Assembly: GCF_001747405.1 (NCBI RefSeq)
Contig: NZ_CP017305.1
Location: 204,001 to 268,000, forward strand
DNA length: 64,000 bases
Source: Chlorobaculum limnaeum
GTDB taxonomy: Bacteria; Bacteroidota; Chlorobiia; Chlorobiales; Chlorobiaceae
Reading direction: 5' to 3'
A program made the position numbers and the translations under genes. The stretch's first letter is position 1, and the number at the start of each line of letters is the position of its first letter. The notes under the pieces are model-generated. The model saw only the letters and a list, made by a program, of their open reading frames with translations. It was not told where the DNA came from and searched no databases. Shown here in pieces: positions 14,975 to 39,874 of this stretch.

Positions 14975-16332
14975 GGTTCATCGTAAAATTTAATGGTAAC
15001 GCTCGTCAGCAATTACGTCAACCGGTAATAGCCATGTTGAGCTTTCCACAGTAAAACAAAATCCTTATGCGGTAGCTGTGAAAGCTGTGGAACCCACGAG
15101 CCGATGCTTTGTACAACTGGATCTTGCTGTTCAGACCTTCGGAAACTGCGTTGGTCATTTCGTGCTCGAAATAGTTCAGGATGTTGTCGAGATGCCGCTT
15201 CAGCAGCTCTTTGACCTTGATCATGGGTTTCAACGCTAACTGGTCAACGCGTTCAGACCAGTAATCGAAAAAGAAGCTTGCACTCTCTCGACAACCCAGC
15301 CGCCAGAACTCCCGAAACATGTTCTTCATCGACCAGGCTTTTCCGGTTTTCAGCTCACAGGCCATCAATTGATCAAAGCTTGTCCGCTGGCTTTCCGTCA
15401 TGTTCTCCGGATTGCGCAGCCAGGTGAATTTCGAGCCAATCAGAGTCCTGTCCCCTGCATGATGAAGTTGACGGGACTCTTGGCGACGAACCGTGTCGAC
15501 CGCCTCGTTCAGATATTTGCTGATATGGAAACGGTCATGCACAATATCGGCCTGCGGCAGATGCTTTTTGGCAGCAATCGCGAAGGGTTTCCACATATCC
15601 ATCGAGATCGATTTCACACCCTGGCGTTGCGATGCTTCAAAGCTGAGGAGTAGCGCTTCTGCTCCATCGGTCGTTCGGCTCTGGACCACCTCAAGTACCC
15701 GGCCACCTTTCAGGTCGTTCAGGATCGTCACATACTGATGGCCTGCCCGGAAGCTCTTTTCATCAAGACCAAGATGAGCAATCGCCTCCTTATTCCGGCG
15801 GCTCAGGCCTCGCTTAACCGCACGGTTCATGATCTCGTTGGTTGCATGCCAGTTCAATCGCAAGAGCCTCGATGCCGACTGAATGCTTGAACACTCCTGA
15901 AGCAACTCGACAGCAAGCGCTTCAAACTTCAGGGTGTAGCGCGAATAGCGCGTTGCCCACGGAACTTGAATTGTCTTGATCCTGTGCTCTTTGCACTCAC
16001 ACCGAGGCACCCTGGCTATCAGATGCGTCTCATACTCCATGGTATCCAGATGCCGCCACCGTTGTTCTGGCGCCAGGTCATAAATTCGTCCGGCCTTGCC
16101 GCATTCAGGGCATTCGACTTTGGGTCCGATATACTCCAGATGGATTTCTATCCGGGGGCCGGACATCGACAGCCGGACATCCGACACCTTCCATGTTTCT
16201 GGTAATCCTAATAACTGCTGGTAATGGGCAATGAGGCTCGGCATACGTTGGGGTTAGTGTTTTGGCGTTCTTGGATAAATTACACCAAGCCACTCATTTT
16301 TACTACCAGCCCATTAAATTCTGCGAAGAGCC
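14975..16332 (-). mobile_element. ISL3-family insertion sequence, 1358 bp, complete
   Basis: Both ends are visible. The left end begins ggttcatcgtaaaatttaat and the right end, read inward, begins ggctcttcgcagaatttaat: imperfect terminal inverted repeats of about 22 bp that start GG and resemble ISL3 ends. The 8-bp direct repeat tcattttt flanks the element on both sides. It contains one full transposase gene on the minus strand. It lies inside a GT2 gene and disrupts it after codon 16. Intact ends, matching duplications and an open transposase suggest a fairly recent insertion. Confidence 0.93.
15018..16244 (-). CDS. ISL3-family transposase
   Basis: The 408-residue DDE transposase has an N-terminal zinc-binding region (CPECGKAG ... 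CECKEHR, about 35-85), a helix-turn-helix-like part, then catalytic segments HLGLDEKSFR, SMDMWKPF and a downstream acidic residue in the segment around TNAVSEGLNSKIQ. Length and order match ISL3 transposases. The stop codon is about 43 bp inside the left terminal repeat. No frameshift or internal stop is seen, so the element may be active. Confidence 0.93.
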   Translation of the reverse strand: MPSLIAHYQQLLGLPETWKVSDVRLSMSGPRIEIHLEYIGPKVECPECGKAGRIYDLAPEQRWRHLDTMEYETHLIARVPRCECKEHRIKTIQVPWATRYSRYTLKFEALAVELLQECSSIQSASRLLRLNWHATNEIMNRAVKRGLSRRNKEAIAHLGLDEKSFRAGHQYVTILNDLKGGRVLEVVQSRTTDGAEALLLSFEASQRQGVKSISMDMWKPFAIAAKKHLPQADIVHDRFHISKYLNEAVDTVRRQESRQLHHAGDRTLIGSKFTWLRNPENMTESQRTSFDQLMACELKTGKAWSMKNMFREFWRLGCRESASFFFDYWSERVDQLALKPMIKVKELLKRHLDNILNYFEHEMTNAVSEGLNSKIQLYKASARGFHSFHSYRIRILFYCGKLNMAITG

Positions 16333-17858: not shown

Positions 17859-19161
17859 GGGCGTCTCTAAAAAGTCAAATGTGCTATAAGCTATTATAAA
17901 AAAGCAATATAGTGCATCGACATCAGACCAATATTCCGTATTTTATGGCAGAACCTCATCGCTCATTTCCACTGCCATGAAGAACATCAATCCTCTGGGT
18001 TTTTTCGACGAGCATTTTCTCTTGGAACGCCTGACCAAGCTGAAAGATCCGCTGGTAAAGCTTGAAACACATATCGACTGGGCTCTCTTTCAGCCTGTCC
18101 TTGAGATCGCGTTCTCCAAGCCGGCCAACAAAAGCAAGATGGGACGTCCCCCGTTTGATCGCACCATGATGTTCAAGATTCTCATTCTGCAAAGCCTCTA
18201 CAGCCTTTCGGACGACCAGATGGAGTACCAGATTACCGATCGTTTGAGTTTCAAGCGCTTTCTCGGGCTGAAATCGAGTGACAAGGTTCCCGATGCCAAA
18301 ACCATCTGGCATTTCCGTGAAACCCTGATCCGGGAAGGGCTCATCGAGGCACTGTTTGCACGCTTCAATCAAGCCCTTGACGACCAGTGCATCTTTGCAA
18401 ACACGGGTCAGATTGTTGATGCCAGTTTCGTTGAAGTACCCCGTCAGCGCAACAGTCGTGATGAAAACCAGCAGATCAAGCAGGGCCAGACCCCTGAGGC
18501 TTGGAAAGCTAATCCCAACAAGCTTCATCAAAAAGACCGTGACGCCCGTTGGGCCAAGAAAAACAAGATGAACTTCTACGGCTACAAGAACCATATCAAG
18601 GTTGATAAAGGAACCAAGCTTATCAGCGACTACACGGTAACCGATGCGTCAGTCCATGACTCCCAGGAACTCGAGACGCTTCTCGATCAAACTGATGCTG
18701 GACAGCCGCTGTACGCTGACGCAGCCTATATCGGCCAGGAAGCAAGCATCGAACAGTGCGGCATGACCAATAACGTCCATGAGAAAGCCAACAAACACCA
18801 TAAGCTTACCGAGACCCAGAAAGCCTCAAATCAAGAAAAAACTCGTCATCGTGCCCGAGTGGAGCATATCTTCGGTTTTCTGACCAATTCGATGAAAGCC
18901 ATGTACATCAGAACCATCGGCTACGATAGGGCAACGGCAAAGATTGGCTTGGCCAATCTGACCTACAACATGATGCGTTGTGTGCAGCTCAACAAAAAGG
19001 TTTACAACGTGTTTCTCTGGGGATAAGTGCGCCCAGTATGACCAAATCCTGGGTTTGTAGACTCAAATCTGTCAAAGAACGTTCATTGGTGCCCGCTAGC
19101 CTGGCATGTACCAACTTTGCTGGCAAGAGAATATTTCAAATCCCTTTTTTTCGAGGTGCCC
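17859..19161 (+). mobile_element. IS5-family insertion sequence, 1303 bp, complete
   Basis: The left end reads gggcgtctctaaaaa and the right end, read inward, gggcacctcgaaaaa: 12 of 15 positions match. The tgta duplications lie directly outside both ends. The single transposase gene reads on the plus strand with about 118 bp before it and 135 bp after it. The insertion is in a GT8-like gene, whose frame is restored exactly when the element is removed. Boundaries were set from the agreement of three things: end repeats, duplication and the host frame. Confidence 0.9.
17977..19026 (+). CDS. IS5-family transposase
   Basis: A 349-residue DDE transposase. The N-terminal domain contains GRPPFDRTMMFKILILQSLY and LSDDQMEYQITDRLSF, typical of IS5-type proteins. 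Catalytic positions are in GQIVDASFV, LYADAAYIGQE and HRARVEHIFGFL, with the Y(2)R(3)E(6)K-like end MYIRTIGYDRATAKIGLANL. It is full length with no internal stop. Unlike many IS5 members there is no sign of a programmed frameshift. Confidence 0.93.
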   Translation: MKNINPLGFFDEHFLLERLTKLKDPLVKLETHIDWALFQPVLEIAFSKPANKSKMGRPPFDRTMMFKILILQSLYSLSDDQMEYQITDRLSFKRFLGLKSSDKVPDAKTIWHFRETLIREGLIEALFARFNQALDDQCIFANTGQIVDASFVEVPRQRNSRDENQQIKQGQTPEAWKANPNKLHQKDRDARWAKKNKMNFYGYKNHIKVDKGTKLISDYTVTDASVHDSQELETLLDQTDAGQPLYADAAYIGQEASIEQCGMTNNVHEKANKHHKLTETQKASNQEKTRHRARVEHIFGFLTNSMKAMYIRTIGYDRATAKIGLANLTYNMMRCVQLNKKVYNVFLWG

Positions 19162-24723: not shown

Positions 24724-24846
24724 TGATTTTCGGGATTTTTCGTCATCGACTTCGTTATCGAGCAATCAATGTACGCCATTTTTTATCTTTATGCAGGTTC
24801 ATCGATTTTCCCGGCAGTCATCTGTTATGCAGTAATCAGTTCAACC

Positions 24847-25605
24847 ATGAGCGTGAAGAAAAAGCTGGTCGTGGTGCTTGGCTCCAAGCTGGGCGCGGAT
24901 ATTCCTCTGGGCGACGCGGTGTATTGCGCCAACGGCGCTATCGGTTACTACGCGGAGACGGTCAGCCGTTTTCCGAGCGTGGTGAGTGTCATGAATCCGG
25001 ATGTGATCCATCCTAAAGGGTTCAGGGAAGGGGCGCCAGACAGAGAGTTGAATCAGCGGCAGTTTCAGATGGTCATCGCCTCACGGCCCGACAAAATGAT
25101 TCTGACAAGAACCGGTCATTTTGAATTTCTGAAGGAAACGCTTGCCGGGGCCGGGTTCACATCTCCCGTGGAGGCTGTTCCGGCGCAAGAGCGGCGGGCG
25201 CTGGTCGGCAAATTCAGCGGCTGTTACGATCCGATTGTCACGAGCGATTTTTTCCGCTTGCCGCTGGACAAGAAAATCCGCTACGCCGGTTCGCTGGCAA
25301 GCACCTTTCTGAAGAGGATACTCAATAAACGCAAGCCTTGCGGGTCGGCGTTCAGGCCTTCGACGGGCATTCTCGCGCTCGTGCTGGCTATCGCCGAGCA
25401 TGGGCGGGATGCTGACTACGTCATTTGCGGTATCGGTGTCCGGAAAAGGGACGAATACCTCAATGGCAAGCAGCTAAAAGGGCGTGATCTTCCACAGCAT
25501 GTCTTCGCCGACGTCAAGGTGCTCCGCAAGCTTGCCCGTCGATACAATCTCTTCACCACCGAGCCTGAGCTGGAGCACCTCGTTCCGCGTTATCGCCCCG
25601 CTTGA
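24847..25605 (+). CDS. Uncharacterised protein, possible sialyltransferase-like fold
   Basis: The protein of 252 residues starts at ATG 24847 (MSVKKKLVVVLGSKLGADIP); the 26 extra residues from 24769 are not conserved-looking. The order of a Rossmann-like start (LVVVLGSKLG), PSTGILALVLAIAEHG, VICGIGV, and a C-terminal HVFADVKVLRKLARRY followed by LFTTEPELEHL recalls GT29/GT42-type sialyltransferases, where PSTG and an H-x-F-x-D pattern occur. This is pattern recognition only. It sits alone on the plus strand among minus-strand glycosyltransferases, which supports a sugar-related role. Confidence 0.45.
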   Translation: MSVKKKLVVVLGSKLGADIPLGDAVYCANGAIGYYAETVSRFPSVVSVMNPDVIHPKGFREGAPDRELNQRQFQMVIASRPDKMILTRTGHFEFLKETLAGAGFTSPVEAVPAQERRALVGKFSGCYDPIVTSDFFRLPLDKKIRYAGSLASTFLKRILNKRKPCGSAFRPSTGILALVLAIAEHGRDADYVICGIGVRKRDEYLNGKQLKGRDLPQHVFADVKVLRKLARRYNLFTTEPELEHLVPRYRPA

Positions 25606-28012: not shown

Positions 28013-28591
28013 ATGCTTGATCTGTCGAAAGCTTCTCTTGTAGGAAAAGGGTCTTCAAGACTTTGTTATGTTCACCCGGAGGATGACCGGAAGTGCGTGA
28101 AGGTCATCTATACCCGAAGGCCTGAGATCAATCAGGTCGAAATGAAGCATTACCGGAGGTTTCAGCGGCGTCACGTTTCGTGGGAGCTGCTGGCCCGTCC
28201 CTACGGGTTCGTGGAGACCTCCGAGGGAGAGGGGGTGGTGTTCAGCCTCGCCCGGGATTTTGACGGCGAAATATCGAAACCGCTGGAACACTACCTTTCA
28301 TTCGCCAGCTCCCGCGATTGCCTGAAGCACTTGCGAGACGCTCTTAAAGAGTTCAAGTCCTTCCTTTTCAGGGATGCTATTGTTGTCAGGGAACTCAAGC
28401 TGGACAATGTCGTTTTCCAGCGGATTTCGGAAGGTCGGTGCCGTCTGGTGCTGATCGACGGCGTTGGCAATAACCAGTTCCTTCCGTTGGCGAACTATTC
28501 CAGAACGTTCGCCCGCCGTATGCTGAAGCGCAAGTGGAGGCAGTTCGAGGCCGATCTGCTCGAACGGGGCTTTAGCGATCTGCCGGAGTGA
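28013..28591 (+). CDS. YrbL-like / LPS-kinase-like protein
   Basis: The 192-residue protein begins SKASLVGKGSSRLCYVHPED, then KCVKVIY, which matches the glycine-rich loop and the lysine of the PhoP-regulated YrbL family, a branch of the protein-kinase-like fold. Further on are VVRELKLDNVVFQ (the region of the catalytic loop) and RLVLIDGVGNNQFLPLA (the metal-binding D position). In other bacteria related proteins are uncharacterised or act as sugar kinases of LPS. It lies on the opposite strand between paralogous GT4 genes, so phosphorylation of a core sugar is a reasonable guess but unproven. The family call is good; the role is inferred. Confidence 0.75.
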   Translation: MLDLSKASLVGKGSSRLCYVHPEDDRKCVKVIYTRRPEINQVEMKHYRRFQRRHVSWELLARPYGFVETSEGEGVVFSLARDFDGEISKPLEHYLSFASSRDCLKHLRDALKEFKSFLFRDAIVVRELKLDNVVFQRISEGRCRLVLIDGVGNNQFLPLANYSRTFARRMLKRKWRQFEADLLERGFSDLPE

Positions 28592-30354: not shown

Positions 30355-31791
30355 ATGAATCTTCCTATAGTTGTTGACCTCGATGGTACGCTTACACCTA
30401 CCGATACGCTTGTCGAGTCTCTTTTGAAGTATGTTCGCAAATCGCCTCTCAATCTGTTCAGAGTCGTCGGATTGGGACGGCAGGAGCGGGCAGTCTTCAA
30501 GAGCCACATCGCGGATCACACCAGCATATCGGGGGAGTTGCTGCCGTATAACGAGCAGTTTCTTCAGTACCTGAAAGAGGAAAAAGCCAAGGGCCGCCGT
30601 ATCGTTCTCGCAACTGCGGCTCACCGGTCGATTGCCGATGCGGTGTCGTCTCATCTCGATATCTTCGATGATGTGCTGGCAACGGATGGCACGCACAATC
30701 TGAAAGGCAAAGAGAAGCTGGCGGCCATCCGTCAGAATCTGGGGGAGCAGTTCGTCTATGCCGGCAACAGCCGGGCGGATATTCCCATATGGAAAGAGTG
30801 CAAGCACGCCATTCTGGTGGGGGTTCCCTCACAGGTTGCCAGGTCAATGAGGCAGCAGGTCGCCGTCGAGCGTGAGTTCAAGTGGCCCGCTCCCGACCTC
30901 AAGGTTTTGATGAAAGCGCTGCGCGTGCATCAGTGGCTCAAGAATCTTCTGCTCTTCGTGCCATTGCTGACCGCAATCAATCTGTCGAGTTTCAGCCGGT
31001 TGTGGCACGTCATTGTTGCGTTCGTTGCGTTCTCGCTCGCGGCCTCGTCTACCTATATTTTCAACGATCTTCTCGATATCGAGAACGATCGTGCCCATCC
31101 CCGAAAGTGCACTCGTCCGTTTGCGAGTGGGAAACTGTCGATCCTGACCGGCGTGATCATGAGCGTCGTGCTCATGATTGTCGCTGTTGTACTGGCGTTG
31201 TCGCTTTCGCAAGGATTTTTTTTCATGCTCATGCTCTACGTTATGATGACGGTCTTCTACACCCTGGTGCTCAAGGAGATCGTTCTGATAGACGTGCTGA
31301 TGCTATCCCTGCTCTATACGTTGCGCATTCTGGCTGGCTCGATTGCCACTCCTGTGAAGACAAGCTTCTGGCTGATGGCTTTTTCGGTGTTTATCTTTTT
31401 CAGCCTGGCGCTCGTCAAGCGTTGCGCGGAGCTGGTGACCATGGACGAGAAAGGGAAGATGGGCACCTATGGCCGCGATTACTGGGTCGAAGATTTGAGA
31501 GTCTTGTGGCCGCTTGGTGTCGGTGCGGCGCTCGCCGCGGTGGTGATGTTCGGGTTGTTCATCAGCGCCCCGGAAACCAGGATCGGGTATGCAACACCCG
31601 ATATGTTGTGGCTGGTTGCGATTGCGCTCATCTACTGGCAGTCACGGTTGTGGGTCATGACTTCTCGAGGACAAATGCATCATGATCCGGTTATTTTCGC
31701 CATTACCGACAGGGGGAGCCAGTACATCGTCTTTATCATGATTGTCATGACGATCATGGCCCGTTTTATCTCGATCAAATTGATTCCATGA
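30355..31791 (+). CDS. HAD phosphatase - UbiA prenyltransferase fusion (phosphoribosyl-polyprenyl-phosphate synthase-like)
   Basis: Residues 1-165 are a HAD-type phosphatase: motif I PIVVDLDGTLTPTDT (4-18), motif II VLATAAHRS and a late FVYAGNSRADIPIW. Residues 180-478 are a UbiA-family membrane prenyltransferase: LRVHQWLKNLLLFVPLL, the metal-binding NDLLDIENDRAHP, and DVLMLSLLYTLRILAG. This variant resembles decaprenylphosphoryl-5-phosphoribose synthase rather than UbiA of quinone synthesis. In actinobacteria a separate phosphatase removes the 5-phosphate; here a HAD domain is fused on. I infer it makes a polyprenyl-phosphate pentose at the inner membrane. It overlaps the next gene by 4 bp (ATGA). 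Confidence 0.82.
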   Translation: MNLPIVVDLDGTLTPTDTLVESLLKYVRKSPLNLFRVVGLGRQERAVFKSHIADHTSISGELLPYNEQFLQYLKEEKAKGRRIVLATAAHRSIADAVSSHLDIFDDVLATDGTHNLKGKEKLAAIRQNLGEQFVYAGNSRADIPIWKECKHAILVGVPSQVARSMRQQVAVEREFKWPAPDLKVLMKALRVHQWLKNLLLFVPLLTAINLSSFSRLWHVIVAFVAFSLAASSTYIFNDLLDIENDRAHPRKCTRPFASGKLSILTGVIMSVVLMIVAVVLALSLSQGFFFMLMLYVMMTVFYTLVLKEIVLIDVLMLSLLYTLRILAGSIATPVKTSFWLMAFSVFIFFSLALVKRCAELVTMDEKGKMGTYGRDYWVEDLRVLWPLGVGAALAAVVMFGLFISAPETRIGYATPDMLWLVAIALIYWQSRLWVMTSRGQMHHDPVIFAITDRGSQYIVFIMIVMTIMARFISIKLIP

Positions 31792-32153
31792 ATACTTTTG
31801 TCGTTGCATTGTGCAGTATTCTGATTTCGGCGGCAGCACAATTTTCGCTGAAAGCCGGGATGTCAGCCGATGCCGTCAAGACGGCGATGCAGCAGCCCTT
31901 TTCGATCAGGACACTGCTGGTTATCCTGAGTGACAAGTTTGTTCTTGGCGGTTTCCTGCTCTATGGATTCGGCGCGGTCGTCTGGCTTTGGGTGCTGTCG
32001 AAGTGGGAGGTGAGCAAAGCATACCCGATGGTGGGAATCGGTTTCCTGGTTACGGCGGCGGTTGGCGCGATGATCGGTGAGCACATAACGATATCAAGGG
32101 GTGTCGGGGTTATCATGATCTGCATTGGAATCTGGTTTATCTCGAACTCCTGA
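31788..32153 (+). CDS. Small multidrug-resistance/EamA-like four-helix membrane protein
   Basis: The 121-residue protein has four hydrophobic helices: an N-terminal FVVALCSILISAAAQFSLK, then VLGGFLLYGFGAVVWLWVL, VSKAYPMVGIGFLVTAAVGA and ITISRGVGVIMICIGIWFI. This is the ArnE/EmrE-type plan. ArnE/F and the actinobacterial Rv3789-type protein are proposed to flip polyprenyl-phosphate sugars. Since it is translationally coupled to the HAD-UbiA gene, a role in moving its lipid-linked product across the membrane is likely. It has no obvious drug-binding motif beyond an early Gln in place of the usual Glu. Confidence 0.75.
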   Translation: MNTFVVALCSILISAAAQFSLKAGMSADAVKTAMQQPFSIRTLLVILSDKFVLGGFLLYGFGAVVWLWVLSKWEVSKAYPMVGIGFLVTAAVGAMIGEHITISRGVGVIMICIGIWFISNS

Positions 32154-32618
32154 TCCGGAACCTGACGCATCGGCGGGCTGATCGCTCTCCTTCGCCCGCC
32201 GGAAGCAGCTTCTGATGCCGCAATGCCAGCTTGTATCGACAGTCCGCTGACTGGATTCCACCACGGAATCCGCAACTTTGCCGCTGATATCTCCTGTCAT
32301 CTCCCGCATCCTGCCCCCATACTGGAGTCCAGCCTTGACGCTTTGTATGCCACTCTGAAGGTCTTTCCCTCAATCGCCTCTGTTCATCCGCTGATTTTTT
32401 TGACGGATGGCGGCGCCTGACCGTTATTTTACACTGTGGTCATTATCCGCAAACGGATCGAATCCGGCGGTTCAGCTCTCTTTGGCAGCTCGCCGGTCGC
32501 CGGCTTTTGCACGTTATGCCTTGAATCCTGTGACCGCTTCAATCGCGATTTCCCGGCATGAGTCTGGCGGCGTTTCGACGCTTTTCGGGAGATTTCCGGA
32601 ATTTCTGTTATCGACAGC
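32154..32618. other. Intergenic region, no gene seen
   Basis: About 465 bp between the SMR-like gene and the next membrane protein. Short ORFs on both strands lack motifs and overlap each other in incompatible frames. No clear terminator or promoter was found. Confidence 0.5.
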
Positions 32619-34457
32619 ATGAAAGATGCCTTGAGCCATCGGATGCCTCCAAAGCTATGGAAAGCCGTCAGTTATGTGCTGATACCGGTAATATGTGGCT
32701 ACGTGTCTACGCTGCTCACGGGGTTCTCTTTCGGGGTGATCAACAACGTTTTTCATTTGCCCTATGTGCTGAATCTGACCCGGTTGCCCGAGTTCCGCGA
32801 CGATGTGTTTTACGCGACACTGAACAACTTCACCACGATCGTCTGGCCGATGCTCAGGGCGATCACTACCGAGGCCAATGTCGAGCAGGTTTTTGCTATC
32901 GCGAATCTGGCAAGCAGAATCGCGGCATTTGCAGGATTGGCCTCTCTGGTGAGAAGTGCCGGACTGGACAGGCCGCTCGAACTGCTGCTGGCGATGATCG
33001 TGCTGACGCTTACCTCCTTGCTGCAATCATTCTCCATCGTTGGCGGTCACGGAATGTTCATCCATTACTTCACTCACAGTGAGGTGACCTGGGTGTTCGT
33101 TTTTCTCTCTGTAGCATATCTGTATACCGGCAGGATCGTGCTGGCCTATGTGATGATGGGCATCGCCTTTTCTGTCAACGCATTCATCGGCCTCTGGCTT
33201 TTTGGAATGAATTCGCTGGTGATGCTGCTGGTGAAGCGCCCCTCAACCGTGGCGACGTTCCTGAAAACTCTGGCTGGATTCGCGCTTTTTGCCTTGCCTG
33301 CGGCGCTCTGGATCTACGTCGCCGTCAGCAGCAAACACGAAGCGGTCGATTTCAGCTATATCGACTATGTCCGTTCGTATTACCCGAAGCATTTCCTGAT
33401 CGAGGCAATCGAGTGGAAAGCGGCGCTGAAGCATCTGGTGCTGGTCTGTTCAGGTCTGCTGGCTGCACGGCATCTGCCGCAGAGCCGCTTCTGGGTCGCT
33501 CTGCAACTCAGCGCGTTGCTGCTTGTGATCGTGGGGGTGCCGTTGCCCTATCTGCTTGACAACCGCTTCATCTTCAATCTGCACCTGCTTCGCGCGGCCG
33601 GTATCGGGCAGGCGCTCGCGACCGTTTTGATCGCTTTGGCGGGGGTCAGGCTGTTGCTGAATCGCGAGGAGCTTGCGATGCGAGTCATCGGCGCGGTCGT
33701 GTTGCTCTCTCTGGCGATGCTGGAGATCAGGATAATCGGCATGGCTGTGCTTTTCGTTTCGATGCTCGCGGCACTGCCCGGCGACGGGTTCGTGGCCCGC
33801 TTCGACCGGTGGGGAATTTTCCGGTGGATCGAGGCGCGGCGGAAGCAGCTCGCCAGTCTCTGCGTATTGCTCTTCGTGCTTGCGCTGACGGATTTTTTCT
33901 GGCAGCATCGACTCGATGCGATTCAGGGCTTCAAGCTTGCGGTGTCGCTCGGGGTGTTTGCTCTTCTGGTTTTTGGCTACAATCGGCGCATGGAGGCGGG
34001 CTGGTCTCTGGCGTTTCTGCTACTCTGTTACACGACCGTTTTTTGCTGGCATCAGGTCAGAAGTTTCGAGGAAAATCAACGTTTCCAACGTACGCTTCCC
34101 GTGAACCAGAGCTGGGTGGAATTGACTTCGTGGATACGGAACAGCCGCTTGCATGGCCCGTTTTTGCTGCCGATGGATGACAATGACCATGTTGAATATT
34201 TTCAGTTGCAGTCGCGCCGGAAGGTGTGGGTGGACTGGAAGCAGGGGGCGGCGGTCATGTGGTCTCCGGACTTTCACCGGCAGTGGTCAACGAGACTTCG
34301 AGAGGTTTCCGCTCTTCGTACGCCCGGGGAGCTGGTCTCATATGCCAGGGCGCGCGGAATCCGTTACGTTGTTCTCCATGCTCCTGAGGCAGGAGTGCCC
34401 GCCTCTTGCCGGTTACTGAAACGGACGCCCGGCTATGTTCTGTACGAAGTGCGGTAA
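32619..34457 (+). CDS. Large polytopic membrane protein, GT-C-like, function unknown
   Basis: The 612-residue protein has about twelve hydrophobic segments and a C-terminal soluble part of about 110 residues. The first loop after helix 1 contains INNVFHLPYVLNLTRLPEF and RDDVFYATLNNFTT; an acidic pair there fits a GT-C fold. I do not recognise a characterised family. The C-terminus has LLPMDDNDHVEYFQL and AGVPASCRLLKRTPGYVLYE, a pattern seen at the end of other bacterial membrane glycosyltransferases. It follows the HAD-UbiA and SMR genes on the same strand, which suggests use of a lipid-linked donor in the periplasm. Confidence 0.6.
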   Translation: MKDALSHRMPPKLWKAVSYVLIPVICGYVSTLLTGFSFGVINNVFHLPYVLNLTRLPEFRDDVFYATLNNFTTIVWPMLRAITTEANVEQVFAIANLASRIAAFAGLASLVRSAGLDRPLELLLAMIVLTLTSLLQSFSIVGGHGMFIHYFTHSEVTWVFVFLSVAYLYTGRIVLAYVMMGIAFSVNAFIGLWLFGMNSLVMLLVKRPSTVATFLKTLAGFALFALPAALWIYVAVSSKHEAVDFSYIDYVRSYYPKHFLIEAIEWKAALKHLVLVCSGLLAARHLPQSRFWVALQLSALLLVIVGVPLPYLLDNRFIFNLHLLRAAGIGQALATVLIALAGVRLLLNREELAMRVIGAVVLLSLAMLEIRIIGMAVLFVSMLAALPGDGFVARFDRWGIFRWIEARRKQLASLCVLLFVLALTDFFWQHRLDAIQGFKLAVSLGVFALLVFGYNRRMEAGWSLAFLLLCYTTVFCWHQVRSFEENQRFQRTLPVNQSWVELTSWIRNSRLHGPFLLPMDDNDHVEYFQLQSRRKVWVDWKQGAAVMWSPDFHRQWSTRLREVSALRTPGELVSYARARGIRYVVLHAPEAGVPASCRLLKRTPGYVLYEVR

Positions 34458-34458
34458 G

Positions 34459-34501
34459 CCGAGGCATTGACGTGCCGGTCAATGTTCAGGAACTCGGTTT
34501 T
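34459..34501 (+). terminator. Nested hairpin with T run after the membrane protein gene
   Basis: Outer stem ccgag (34459-34463) with ctcgg (34493-34497), and inner stem cattgac (34465-34471) with gtcaatg (34478-34484), followed by tttta. It directly follows the stop codon, as expected for a Rho-independent terminator. Some mismatches separate the stems. Confidence 0.5.
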
Positions 34502-35407
34502 ATTTCAGACTTTTTTTATGAGCGAGCCCGTTGCCATGGTGCTCCGTTCTGTATCATTCGATGTAGTCGAAGGTTTTTGGATGACTGAAAGCCAGTGTGT
34601 TTTATTGAATCTGATACGAAATGTTTTTCAATATGTATATTTGTGTGAATGTTCCGAAATTGGAGGGAGCTCAAGAGCTTGTTCTGGACGTATATGCTTT
34701 TATTTATAAATAAAATTGTGTATACTGCACACGAGTAATACGAAGCAGACAGATGCCTGGCTCTCGGTTTTCGCTGGAAAATGTCATTTCGGTCGAGCAG
34801 GTTTATATAGATATCAGATAGTTCTATGCTCTTTAACATAGTTGAGTATGGTTCGCGCCCCACTCTAAAGCCAGCCATCACTTCCGCGTTGTCGGGCAGC
34901 TTCAAACGACACGAAACAGACATGCCGCCCGAAACGACAAAATCGAGTCAATCGTCGAGAAATTGGAACCAATTAACCAAAATGCTGCTTTGGAGTTTTA
35001 TATCTATGTCTAAATCCGTAAGAAGTATGAATTCCTGACAATAAAAAAAAATCGGCAGTCTCGGCCAATTGCAACAGTAGACGGTCATGTCGGTTGATTG
35101 AGCTGTTATAGAAATGGATAAAACAGAATCCGGAAATCAAGTCGTTCACCCTGATCCACAATGCTGTTTCGATGCAGAGCCGAATAGCTCAGTGCCCTTT
35201 CGCGCTCCCGGGTTTCATTGGGCGTTAAATCAATTGCCATGGCTGCGATTGTGTATTGACATAAAGGATCGTTGCTGTTGCCATGAAGCAGTGGTTGTGA
35301 ATCGATATTTGACATTCCACAATCGCTCGATAAAAAACAGGAAGAGCTGTTTCTCCGTCTACTCGTTTATGATTGGATACTAATTATGTATTAATCAATG
35401 ATTTGCT
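34502..35407. other. AT-rich intergenic region, no certain gene
   Basis: About 900 bp without a recognisable product. The best-looking frame, 35106-35315 on the minus strand, encodes 69 residues including MAIDLTPNETRERERALSY, but has no family match I know and no ribosome site. It may be a fragment of a lost gene. The region precedes an AT-rich membrane-protein gene. Confidence 0.5.
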
Positions 35408-37147
35408 ATGCTTAAAAACAAGATCTCTGAAGTTAATCGTCTCAACCTGGTTTTGAGGAGCGTATTTTGGGCTTTGGCGATCATTCTTGGTTTTATTCAG
35501 ACGCGGAGTGGTCGGTATCTGATGTGGTATGACGGCCCTTCCTATCTGGATATAGCAGATAATTACCTGAAGGGGGATTGGACAACGGCTATTAACGCTT
35601 GCTGGAGTCCTCTTTATTCATGGATATTGGGAATAGCTTTATTTATTTTCCATCCGTCTCCTTATTGGGAACTGTTTCTGGTCAAATCTGTAAACTTTGT
35701 GCTCTATCTGTTCGCTTTGTTTTCTTTTGATTTTTTCCTGAATCAAATAATATCTTATTCCTCTGATAAAGAAAATCGAAAAGAGGGTATTGATGACATC
35801 CTGAAAAAGCCGGATTGGGTCTGGATTGTGCTTGGATATACAATTTTTATCTGGTCGTCGATCGTATGGATTCTTGTGCATCGGGATAGCCCTGATATGA
35901 TGGTTGCTGCTCTTGTATATCTTGCGACGGGTTTTGTCGTAAGAATTGCGATGAATCCATTGAACTGGAGTAACTATGTGATACTTGGTTTTATTCTGGG
36001 ACTGAGTTATCTGTCAAAGTCGTTTATGTTGCCTTTAGGGTTTGTCTATATCATTTCAATTATTCACATAAGCGACCGCATAAGTTTAAAAAGCAGCCTG
36101 TTGAGAGCCTCGATTTCTGCATTGCTTATGTTGTTGGTCGCTTTGCCATTTATTACCGCCATTTCTTTGCAGAAGCAACGGTTTACAATAGGTGACGCAG
36201 GAAAACTGAATTATGCCTGGTATGTCAGCCCTGTCGCAAATGATCATTACTGGCAAGGTTCTCCTGAAACCGGCACCCCGGCCCATCCTGTAAGAACGAT
36301 TAATAAAAATCCTGAAATTATAGAATTCGCTACGCCAATATCAGGTTCTTACCCCGCCTGGTATGATCCTTCATATTGGAGTGATGGTATTCAGCCAAAA
36401 TTCGATTTGGAAAAACAGATTTATATTATTAAACAGAATCTTAAGTATTTAATAAAACTGTTTTTAGCTTTTTTCCTTCTGTTGTTCTTCTTTTTGGCGA
36501 GCATAAATAAAGAGTGTACTATAGGTTTTTTGAGAAATATCATTCATAATTGGAGGTTTTTTCTTACACCCATAGCTGGGTTTATCAGCTTTATTATATT
36601 TACTGATCTGGCGGTAATTGATGAGCCATGGATTGCATTTCAGACAAGATATATAGCGCCGTTTGTTTTGATGTTATTTGTGTTTGTTGTTTTTAGCGTA
36701 GATGTAAAAAGTGTACTATCAAAAAAAACATTAGGTGGCATAGTTATTGTTTCTGTGATACTTGCAAATGTTGCTCTTTTATTTCAGCCTTCATTTAAAA
36801 GAAGGACAATAGAGTATCCGGTCAATGATATAAGAAACTATCATTGGCAAGTTGCTGATAATCTGGCAAAAATGGGGGTCAGGCCGGGTGATCGAGTTGC
36901 TGTTTTAGGATTTGATGATGAAGAGTTGTATTGGGCCAGGTTGGCTAAAGTAAAAATAATAGCCGCGATGAGTGCTGACTACTATTCATCCAAAAAAAGA
37001 AAAAAAACTATTGCGCTGAATGTGCTGAAAAAAGCCGGGGTGAATGCTCTTGTAATACCTTCATTGCCGCCTTGGGTTTCAGATAAGGATTTGAGTCCGG
37101 ATTGGGATAAGATTGGGGAGACAAAGACCTATATTTATAAATTTTAA
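35408..37147 (+). CDS. Polytopic membrane protein, probable GT-C glycosyltransferase
   Basis: The 579-residue protein has around ten membrane spans in its first 430 residues and a soluble C-terminal end. The first periplasmic loop includes MWYDGPSYLDIADNYLKGDW, with the acidic residues expected of GT-C/GT39-like enzymes, followed by WSPLYSWILG. The C-terminal MGVRPGDRVAVLGFDDEELY is a frequent element of such proteins. The gene is AT-rich, unlike those on either side, which suggests separate acquisition. No specific subfamily could be assigned. Confidence 0.65.
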   Translation: MLKNKISEVNRLNLVLRSVFWALAIILGFIQTRSGRYLMWYDGPSYLDIADNYLKGDWTTAINACWSPLYSWILGIALFIFHPSPYWELFLVKSVNFVLYLFALFSFDFFLNQIISYSSDKENRKEGIDDILKKPDWVWIVLGYTIFIWSSIVWILVHRDSPDMMVAALVYLATGFVVRIAMNPLNWSNYVILGFILGLSYLSKSFMLPLGFVYIISIIHISDRISLKSSLLRASISALLMLLVALPFITAISLQKQRFTIGDAGKLNYAWYVSPVANDHYWQGSPETGTPAHPVRTINKNPEIIEFATPISGSYPAWYDPSYWSDGIQPKFDLEKQIYIIKQNLKYLIKLFLAFFLLLFFFLASINKECTIGFLRNIIHNWRFFLTPIAGFISFIIFTDLAVIDEPWIAFQTRYIAPFVLMLFVFVVFSVDVKSVLSKKTLGGIVIVSVILANVALLFQPSFKRRTIEYPVNDIRNYHWQVADNLAKMGVRPGDRVAVLGFDDEELYWARLAKVKIIAAMSADYYSSKKRKKTIALNVLKKAGVNALVIPSLPPWVSDKDLSPDWDKIGETKTYIYKF

Positions 37148-37248
37148 TCGTTGAAATAAATGGTTTTCTCTCAATGGATTTCCCTTATTTTATATAACCA
37201 TACTTGAATCATTACATTAATTATATGATAATATAAACCACATAGAAT

Positions 37249-38706
37249 ATGATTATGCCTGTTTTGCTGATGGCGGGGTTGTCATCGGTTATGTTACTGT
37301 ATCTGTTATCGGACAAAGCACCTGATCTTTTCAGGTTGAAAAAGTACCGGGAATATCCTCTGCTCAACAGGAGCTACTTGCTGCTGCTTACGCTGCTGGT
37401 CAGTTCTCTGCTGGTCAGCGCCATGCTGGCCGTATCGTTCCATCAGCCTGGCGACGCAACGACAGGCTATGTGGATACAACGGCAGGCTATATGCTCAAG
37501 ACACTCAATGTCTGGAATTTCACTCATTTAGCAGATTCCTGGAAACCCATGTTATGGGCCCTGCAAGAGTTGCAGGAAGATCCGCAAAATCCTGTCTCTC
37601 TGTATTATCGCATATTTTTTGACGAGAAGATCAAGTTCCAGTATCCGTTGAGTGCTTTGCTTTTTCTGGATTATCCCCAGCGGTTGACATCAGTCGATGG
37701 GCATGCAATGTCGTTTGCAATGAACCTGCTTTGCTGGCCCAGCCTGATTGCCATGGGTTTCATGAGCTATTATTTGTTTGTTAACTCCGCATCACGTTAT
37801 GAAGAGCAGAAAGAGATAATCGGTACCGGGAACCAGAAAAAGTCATGGATACCGTTTTTGTTGATCAGTCTGTTCTCTGTTTACCTGTTTTATCCCTTGA
37901 CCAGATCATTCTATATCGGGCAGATTCAGACTTTGCTTAGCTGTTTGATCGCATTAGCTCTGATCGCCTGGCACAAAAACTGGAAAGTTCTCGCTGGTTC
38001 AATTGTTGGTCTCTGCTGCGCCATCAAGCCGCAGTATGCGGTTCTGCTTCTGTGGGCGTTATTCAGGAAAGAATGGAAGTTTTCTGTCACTCTTCTGGTT
38101 ACGGCAGGTATTTTGCAGGTTGTTTCGGTGCTGGAATATGGATTCAGTAATGTTATCGGTTATATCGATGTTCTGCGATTCATCAGCAAAAGAGGCGAGG
38201 GCTTTTACCCGAACCAGTCGGTGAACGGACTGATGAACCGGTTGTTGTTTAATGGGAACAACCTTGAATGGCTTGGAAAAAGCTTCGCTCCATACCATCC
38301 GGCAGTCTATTACAGCACAGTGGCAACCTCGGTAATCATTCTGGGCGCCTCCTTGTTCTGGCGGATGCGGCAAAAGCCGCAGCTTCTCGACTTGGCGCTG
38401 ATGTTTCTCAGTGTCACCATCGCATCACCGATTGCCTGGGAGCATCATTACGGGATTTTGCTGCCTGTATTCGCCGTGCTGTTTCCGGCGGCTATTGCTC
38501 GTCGGCCATTCGGAGCCTGGACCGAGGCGTATCTGCTTACCGCCTATTTCCTCGCGAGTCAGACCCTCGACTTGTTTACCGCGCAGTTCGCCAATACTTA
38601 CCTGAACTTCTTGCAGTCCTACCTGTTTTTTGGCGCTCTCATGGTGCTGGTGCTGCTGTACCGGTTGCTGTATGTTGACCAGCGACTTGCGAAGGCGTCC
38701 GCTTGA
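37249..38706 (+). CDS. GT87-like membrane glycosyltransferase
   Basis: The 485-residue polytopic protein has an early signature of the GT87 family: TRSFYIGQIQTLLSCLIALA (where GQ-x-N/Q is conserved), then LAGSIVGLCCAIKPQYAVLL (K-P) and FYPNQSVNGLMNRLLF (N-Q-S). These elements recur in bacterial GT87 mannosyl- and arabinosyl-type transferases using polyprenyl-phosphate donors at the periplasmic face. Around ten hydrophobic segments are visible. It is separated from the gene upstream by 101 bp and is followed by a strong terminator. The sugar is not known. Confidence 0.78.
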   Translation: MIMPVLLMAGLSSVMLLYLLSDKAPDLFRLKKYREYPLLNRSYLLLLTLLVSSLLVSAMLAVSFHQPGDATTGYVDTTAGYMLKTLNVWNFTHLADSWKPMLWALQELQEDPQNPVSLYYRIFFDEKIKFQYPLSALLFLDYPQRLTSVDGHAMSFAMNLLCWPSLIAMGFMSYYLFVNSASRYEEQKEIIGTGNQKKSWIPFLLISLFSVYLFYPLTRSFYIGQIQTLLSCLIALALIAWHKNWKVLAGSIVGLCCAIKPQYAVLLLWALFRKEWKFSVTLLVTAGILQVVSVLEYGFSNVIGYIDVLRFISKRGEGFYPNQSVNGLMNRLLFNGNNLEWLGKSFAPYHPAVYYSTVATSVIILGASLFWRMRQKPQLLDLALMFLSVTIASPIAWEHHYGILLPVFAVLFPAAIARRPFGAWTEAYLLTAYFLASQTLDLFTAQFANTYLNFLQSYLFFGALMVLVLLYRLLYVDQRLAKASA

Positions 38707-38821: not shown

Positions 38822-39874
38822 TCAGACCTTGAAAAATTCACGATACCAGGCGATGAAGCGGTTGACTCCTTCCTGCACGGTGGTTTCCGGCTTGTAGCCG
38901 AGATCGTTCACGAGATCCTGAACATCGGCGTAGGTGGAGGGAACGTCGCCCGGTTGAATGGGCAGCAGGTTTTTTTCGATGCTCTTGCCGAGCGCATTTT
39001 CGATGGCTCCGATGTAATCCATCAGGCTGACTGGCTGATTGTTGCCGATGTTGTAGACGCGGTAGGGCGCGGATGAAGTTCCGGGATCGGGTGACGCGCC
39101 GCTCCAGTCGGGGTTCGGGCTTGCCGGATGGTCGAGCACCCGCACGACGCCCTCGACGATGTCGTCGATGTAGGTGAAGTCACGTTGCATGTTGCCGTAG
39201 TTGAAGACGTCGATCGGGCGGCCTTCGAGTGCGGCTTTGGTGAAGAGGAAGAGCGCCATGTCAGGCCGTCCCCAGGGGCCGTAGACCGTGAAGAAGCGCA
39301 GGCCGGTGGTCGGAATGCCGAACAGGTGGCTGTAGGTGTGGGCCATCAGCTCGTTCGATTTCTTGCTGGCCGCGTAGAGGCTGACCGGGTGGTCGACGTT
39401 GTGGTGCACCGAGAAGGGCTGGCGTTCGTTCAGGCCGTAAACCGACGAGCTCGACGCATAGCAGAAGTTGCCGAGGCTGTTGTGCCGCGCAGCCTCCAGA
39501 AGGTTCACGAAGCCGACGATGTTCGAGGTGACGTAGGAACCGGGATTGGTGAGGGAGTACCGGACGCCGGCCTGGGCGGCCAGGTTGCAGAGCGCGTCGA
39601 ATTTCTCCGTTTTGAAAAGCTGGTCGATGCCCTCCTTGTCTTCGAGGTTGAGCTTGACAAAGCGGTAGTTTGGATACTTCGAAGAGGTGACGGGTTTGCT
39701 GTATTCGATGGCGGATTCCTCGATGCCAGACCAGGCCAGACGCCCGTACTTTACCCGCTGGTCGTAATAGTCGTTGATGTTGTCGATGCCGACCACCTCG
39801 TCTCCCCTCGACGCGAGGCGTTCGCAAAGATGGAAGCCGATGAATCCGGCGGAGCCGGTAACGAGAATTTTCAT
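38822..39874 (-). CDS. NAD-dependent epimerase, UDP-glucuronate 4-epimerase-like
   Basis: This 350-residue extended SDR enzyme begins MKILVTGSAGFIGFHLCERL, then GIDNINDYYDQRVKYGRL, a stretch typical of UDP-glucuronate 4-epimerases (CapI/GAE type). The catalytic Ser/Thr region SSSSVYG and the YAASKKSNE motif (YxxxK) are intact, as is RFFTVYGPWGRPDMALF. The enzyme would interconvert UDP-glucuronate and UDP-galacturonate for surface polysaccharide. It is transcribed toward the GT87-like gene and separated from it by the bidirectional terminator. Confidence 0.87.
   Translation of the reverse strand: MKILVTGSAGFIGFHLCERLASRGDEVVGIDNINDYYDQRVKYGRLAWSGIEESAIEYSKPVTSSKYPNYRFVKLNLEDKEGIDQLFKTEKFDALCNLAAQAGVRYSLTNPGSYVTSNIVGFVNLLEAARHNSLGNFCYASSSSVYGLNERQPFSVHHNVDHPVSLYAASKKSNELMAHTYSHLFGIPTTGLRFFTVYGPWGRPDMALFLFTKAALEGRPIDVFNYGNMQRDFTYIDDIVEGVVRVLDHPASPNPDWSGASPDPGTSSAPYRVYNIGNNQPVSLMDYIGAIENALGKSIEKNLLPIQPGDVPSTYADVQDLVNDLGYKPETTVQEGVNRFIAWYREFFKV

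Follow-up and report, generated by a model that had tools for sequence, protein, structure and literature searches.

A probable polyprenyl-phosphate pentofuranose system with a coupled SMR-like gene in Chlorobaculum limnaeum

Can one block of genes in a green sulfur bacterium carry a lipid-linked pentose from its synthesis in the cytoplasm to its transfer in the periplasm? The question is raised by a 64,000-nucleotide stretch of the Chlorobaculum limnaeum genome (contig NZ_CP017305.1, positions 204,001 to 268,000; hereafter the window), in which we confirmed all five open reading frames (ORFs) of a block at 30355-38706 on the + strand. The block begins with a fusion of a HAD phosphatase domain to a UbiA-superfamily prenyltransferase domain, followed by a gene resembling the small multidrug resistance (SMR) family and three genes for polytopic proteins:

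30355..31791, + strand: HAD-UbiA fusion, predicted polyprenyl-phosphate phosphoribosyltransferase (N-terminal HAD 5'-phosphatase at residues ~1-170, UbiA domain at residues ~182-478)
31788..32153, + strand: ArnF/EamA-type SMR-like protein, candidate polyprenyl-phosphate ribose flippase (sub-threshold family matches, kept adjacency)
32619..34457, + strand: GTC1, polytopic DUF6798-related candidate GT-C glycosyltransferase (sub-threshold DUF6798 match, hhalign to PMT_2 proteins)
35408..37147, + strand: GTC2, accessory PMT-like polytopic protein, candidate GT-C glycosyltransferase (sub-threshold PMT_2 match, hhalign)
37249..38706, + strand: GT87-family GT-C glycosyltransferase (Pfam GT87 above cut-off)

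We consider it likely that the block is a periplasmic pentofuranosylation system. In the mechanism we propose, the UbiA half would act on the cytoplasmic side of the membrane, transferring 5-phosphoribose from phosphoribosyl pyrophosphate (PRPP) to a polyprenyl phosphate, probably undecaprenyl phosphate, and the HAD half would strip the 5'-phosphate to leave polyprenyl-phosphate-ribofuranose. The coupled SMR-like protein would then flip this lipid across the inner membrane, where GTC1 and/or the GT87 protein (the most likely transferases, always present in the block), with GTC2 as an optional addition, would transfer ribofuranose to a surface glycan. The acceptor would plausibly be the lipopolysaccharide (LPS) or exopolysaccharide (EPS) product of the GT4, GT2 and GT9 genes that adjoin the block.

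Identity of the HAD-UbiA fusion

The fusion contains both Pfam domains (HAD PF12710, 7.9e-14; UbiA PF01040, 1.3e-22) and is matched over its full length by NCBIfam NF006088 (610 bits, cut-off 351). Models for decaprenylphosphoryl-5-phosphoribose synthase (DPPRS) ranked next without reaching their respective cut-offs, scoring 161 (NF008977, cut-off 234), 150 and 118 bits. Its best match in the PDB is Rv3806c of Mycobacterium tuberculosis (8j8j, E 7.8e-27, residues 182-460), and its UbiA half carries both NDLLDIENDRAHP and LRVHQWLKN, the motifs from which a DPPRS-like activity had first been proposed in a preliminary description of the block.

Using the PRPP- and Mg2+-contacting residues of Rv3806c taken from PMC10994848, we compared active sites in a 49-row alignment. 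Ten of the 11 contacts are identical in the window fusion (R22, K28, Y70, N73, D77, K87, R90, Y138, K143 and Y157), while the eleventh, Q135, is replaced by T; nearly every fusion has T or S at this position. Three of the contacts (R22, K28 and Y70) are missing from the four UbiA proteins of the same genome that were compared. The HAD half likewise keeps its catalytic motifs, namely DLDGT (motif I), the Thr of LATAAH (motif II), the Lys of NLKGKEK (motif III) and the motif IV Asp of GNSRAD. Two trees were built, the second omitting one row (L107), and both part all fusions from the chlorophyll/quinone-type UbiAs of the window genome, although long branches meet at that split.

A prenyltransferase for an aromatic acceptor (a quinone, chlorophyll or another such compound) beside unrelated glycan genes could be suspected from the UbiA superfamily alone, the more so in a genus with prenylated pigments and quinones and in a genome with seven further UbiA genes. 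Against this, the tree and the active-site residues point to phosphoribosyltransferases, 4-hydroxybenzoate, heme o and homogentisate models scored the fusion at 39 bits or less (118-161 bits for the DPPRS models), and a fused HAD domain with a coupled SMR-like gene suits the export of a sugar lipid; we regard such a function as very improbable. The clustering with quinone or chlorophyll synthases that the preliminary description had named as refuting its proposal was not seen, because both residues and trees separate the fusion from the UbiAs of its own genome. We infer that the fusion combines a polyprenyl-phosphate phosphoribosyltransferase with a HAD phosphatase, both activities being predicted, and both halves of the original assignment hold up.

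DprE1, DprE2 and the sugar of the donor

The preliminary description had seen no DprE1/DprE2-type genes in the window, and a genome-wide search extended this to DprE1 in the whole genome. PF04030 (ALO domain) found no match there, with a Corynebacterium control positive but the Chlorobiaceae DprE1 itself reaching just 19.6 bits; the best hit of a Chlorobiaceae DprE1 query was a longer FAD_binding_4 protein at 19 bits. A DprE2-like query returned generic short-chain dehydrogenase/reductase (SDR) matches only, the best at 51 bits and 26% identity. As the genome has no DprE1 homologue, the transferred sugar most likely stays ribofuranose, with no conversion to arabinose. For the sugar composition of Chlorobium and Chlorobaculum, nothing relevant was found in the published literature searched.

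An unlinked or non-DprE enzyme could still epimerise the donor, making the sugar xylofuranose or arabinofuranose. There is a precedent in Citrobacter youngae O2, where a single SDR epimerase, ORF13, serves for xylofuranose (Xylf) (PMC11127046), and the window genome offers at least 12 SDR-like matches as well as an epimerase-family gene at 38822-39874 that borders the block. These SDR matches are just 23-36% identical to the DprE2-like query, and DprE1 is missing. The bordering gene was set aside as the pathway epimerase: of 21 genomes of the genus, 20 have it and most of these lack the type-B block, a near-universal presence that makes it unspecific to the block. We judge an epimerised donor distinctly unlikely.

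The arrangement in the window, which we call type B, differs from that of most other HAD-UbiA loci in the phylum, which are type A. Type-A loci come both from further Chlorobiaceae and from elsewhere in the phylum (L024-L031, L047-L057 and L063-L076). Among 30 loci from a sample of 297 genomes of the phylum, 25 had a DprE1 homologue within ~1.5 kb, three were type B and two were neither. The Chlorobiaceae type-A order is HAD-UbiA, GtrA in part of the genomes, DprE1 and DprE2. In L024, L026 and L027 (also L028-L031), the genes for HAD-UbiA, GtrA and the DprE1-like and DprE2-like proteins stand consecutively, with L030 and L031 encoding UbiA without HAD. Type-A DprE1 proteins scored 436 and 406 bits with NF053785 (cut-off 500) and DprE2 204 bits with NF053786 (cut-off 250), all of them sub-threshold. 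From this gene content, the Chlorobiaceae type-A row is apparently a polyprenyl-phosphate arabinose pathway. The two forms would place extracytoplasmic pentofuranose addition in green sulfur bacteria and predict a strain difference, with ribofuranose accompanying type B and arabinofuranose type A.

The SMR-like partner, the transferases and their relatives

Three relatives have the HAD-UbiA fusion, SMR-like gene, GTC1, a variable region, GT87 and the epimerase-family gene in the same order at 60-95% identity: Chlorobaculum thiosulfatiphilum DSM 249 (G016; L021/L045), Chlorobaculum sp. 24CR (G010; L022/L046) and a third genome, G017 (L023). Because HAD-UbiA, SMR, GTC1 and GT87 recur in this order in three other genomes, the block is not a chance assembly. 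A scan of genome contigs returned the two close relatives only, and a phage search gave one partial match. In G017 (C1:165000-184900) the fusion and GT87 are each split by frameshifts, for which sequencing error is a possible cause, and an intact type-A locus lies elsewhere in the same genome.

The variable region differs between these genomes. Apart from the window, only G016 has a highly similar GTC2; the other two of the three relatives lack the gene. Strain 24CR and G016 carry a second GT87-type ORF on the opposite strand (L022:8155-9603 (+) in 24CR, where it scores 77.8 bits to GT87; in G016, between GTC1 and GTC2 on the L021 minus strand). The corresponding place in the window is an AT-rich gap of 950 bp, in which no remnant of the relatives' extra GT87 was found. 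In G017 the region holds an acyltransferase-like, frame-broken ORF, as read from the sequence. GTC2 is poorly conserved and foreign in composition, with a GC content of 0.38 compared with 0.49-0.56 in neighbouring block genes. From the synteny across relatives, together with the GC content and patchy presence of GTC2, it follows that GTC1 and GT87 are the core of the block and GTC2 is optional; the whole resembles a cassette whose transferases can be exchanged.

The SMR-like gene starts at 31788, 4 bp within the fusion, which stops at 31791, and the adjacency of the two is retained in all three relatives. The protein reached 49.5 bits (E 5e-13) against ArnF (NF002816, cut-off 99), also matched TMEM234 and EamA below threshold, and gave no match in a PDB sequence search. 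Overlap, SMR-like family and kept adjacency agree with the earlier proposal that this protein flips the product; the family scores are sub-threshold, so the flippase stands as a candidate. For the flippases of all such systems discussed in PMC11127046, direct evidence is lacking, and the SMR-coupled pair offers a compact two-gene handle on that question.

Outside the phylum, the window clade groups with fusions from Burkholderia multivorans/arboris and Vibrio alfacsensis (L087, L088 and L090; support 96/97 and 100/97). The window fusion shares 51-52% identity with the Burkholderia proteins and ~42% with that of Vibrio, compared with ~41% for type-A fusions of its own family. In V. alfacsensis an EamA-family gene, 39% identical to the window SMR-like protein, overlaps the fusion by 4 bp, whereas in Burkholderia an EamA/SMR-like gene lies one gene beyond it; no DprE1 was seen near either fusion. 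Since the window fusion groups with these SMR/EamA-partnered proteins, we infer horizontal acquisition, and the grouping suggests that an epimerase-free, SMR-coupled variant has spread between lineages. The V. alfacsensis pair is on a plasmid (L090), where it adjoins exopolysaccharide genes of the XrtA/PEP-CTERM type and a gene annotated as an O-glycosylation ligase.

Among the polytopic proteins, only GT87 exceeded a Pfam cut-off (72.9 bits, cut-off 25). GTC1 matched DUF6798 below threshold, a distant homologue of it matching that family at 60 bits, and GTC2 reached a sub-threshold 19 bits to PMT_2. In hhalign comparisons with PMT_2 proteins from 20 loci, GTC1 and GTC2 aligned with 94% and 96% probability over ~450-490 columns, compared with 0% for a UbiA control, although per-column confidence for GTC1 was low. 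PDB sequence searches with the GT87 protein and a GTC1 profile found no match, and a GTC2 profile gave implausible short matches only. GTC1 and GTC2 are thus probably GT-C enzymes. Of the three GT-C-like enzymes first proposed to use the donor, the GT87 protein is clear as to family; GTC1 and GTC2 have weak matches, and donor use by all three would go beyond these data.

Family GT87 includes hexose transferases. Fusion and SMR-like protein might therefore act as proposed while the downstream polytopic enzymes use hexose donors and the ribosyltransferase is encoded elsewhere. Consistent with this, the enzymes beside the Burkholderia and Vibrio fusions are not homologous to GTC1, GTC2 or GT87 (tblastn), and GTC2 is foreign in composition and variable in presence. 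In the 297-genome sample, however, GTC1 was found at high similarity only alongside the type-B fusion, in four genomes, so that the two go together, and we consider the hexose alternative unlikely.

Several observations weigh against a periplasmic pentofuranosylation system. The SMR-like protein falls under every curated cut-off, and translational coupling is limited to this gene and the fusion, the later gaps being 465, 950 and 101 bp. AlphaFold models were poor (predicted local distance difference test, pLDDT, of 47 for GTC1 from eight sequences and 40 for GTC2 from four), and because of this the GT-C fold of both proteins rests on weak profile matches. The many SDRs of the genome leave room for an unlinked epimerase of the C. 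youngae ORF13 type. With these points taken into account, the block is real and coherent, its mechanism is probably correct, and the system is an instance of a published kind.

The surrounding DNA contains further glycan genes. Upstream of the glycan locus, a GT4 gene lies between transposase genes of the ISL3 type (15018-16244) and the DDE_Tnp_1 type (17977-19026), and a YrbL-type protein (28013-28591; NF007671, 241 bits, above cut-off) is encoded between two GT4 genes. In the same run as the YrbL-type gene is a 278-aa ORF (24769-25605) without a Pfam match.

Comparison with known systems

The preliminary description took the pathway to be undescribed in green sulfur bacteria, but the same two activities of a HAD-UbiA fusion were proven biochemically in 2024: ORF15 of C. 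youngae converts PRPP to farnesyl-phosphate-ribofuranose, with the HAD half as 5'-phosphatase (PMC11127046). Because that paper published essentially the same scheme, and called the three-component pentofuranose system widespread, the earlier model is not new. Chlorobi are absent from the paper's main text. Green sulfur bacteria also have a fuller version with DprE1/E2 at another locus. The present analysis adds a variant that is coupled to SMR and has no DprE, describes where it occurs and sets it against the arabinose-type locus of closely related genomes. More tentatively, and with somewhat more doubt than confidence, green sulfur bacteria may possess two separately inherited lipid-pentose wirings, one arabinose-type and one horizontally acquired and ribose-type, whose replacement and decay between strains (as in G017, with type A kept and type B frame-broken) would act as a serotype switch, with SMR as a third flippase solution beside the MATE and Rv3789 types.

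The C. youngae O1/O2 loci (ORF15, a polyprenyl-phosphate phosphoribosyltransferase; ORF14 flippase; ORF12 GT-C; PMC11127046) share with the window a HAD-UbiA fusion, a separate gene for a flippase (a candidate in the window) and polytopic glycosyltransferases (likewise candidates), and O1 is also alike in having no epimerase. The flippase there is a MATE protein, whereas the window candidate is SMR/ArnF-like, and ORF12 belongs to GT136; the window has up to three candidates (GT87, DUF6798-related and PMT-like). The mycobacterial decaprenylphosphoryl arabinose (DPA) pathway (Rv3806c, Rv3807c, DprE1/E2, Rv3789, Emb/Aft) resembles the block in its UbiA-fold phosphoribosyltransferase with the same PRPP-contacting residues, and in having a small exporter (a candidate in the window) and GT-C transferases. 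It differs in having DprE1, which the window genome lacks, in its other transferases and in using Rv3807c where the window has a fused HAD; according to PMC11127046, the fused phosphatase is unrelated to Rv3807c.

Type-A loci have the same active-site residues and, except for UbiA alone in L030, L031 and L076, the same HAD-UbiA architecture, but are DprE1-linked, often with DprE2 and partly with GtrA; their fusions are ~40% identical to that of the window and form a separate clade at another genomic location. Burkholderia and Vibrio provide the nearest clade, with an EamA/SMR-like gene near or overlapping the fusion. In Burkholderia, a 395-aa polytopic partner without a Pfam match intervenes between fusion and SMR-like gene, and in Vibrio the locus lies inside an XrtA/PEP-CTERM exopolysaccharide region.

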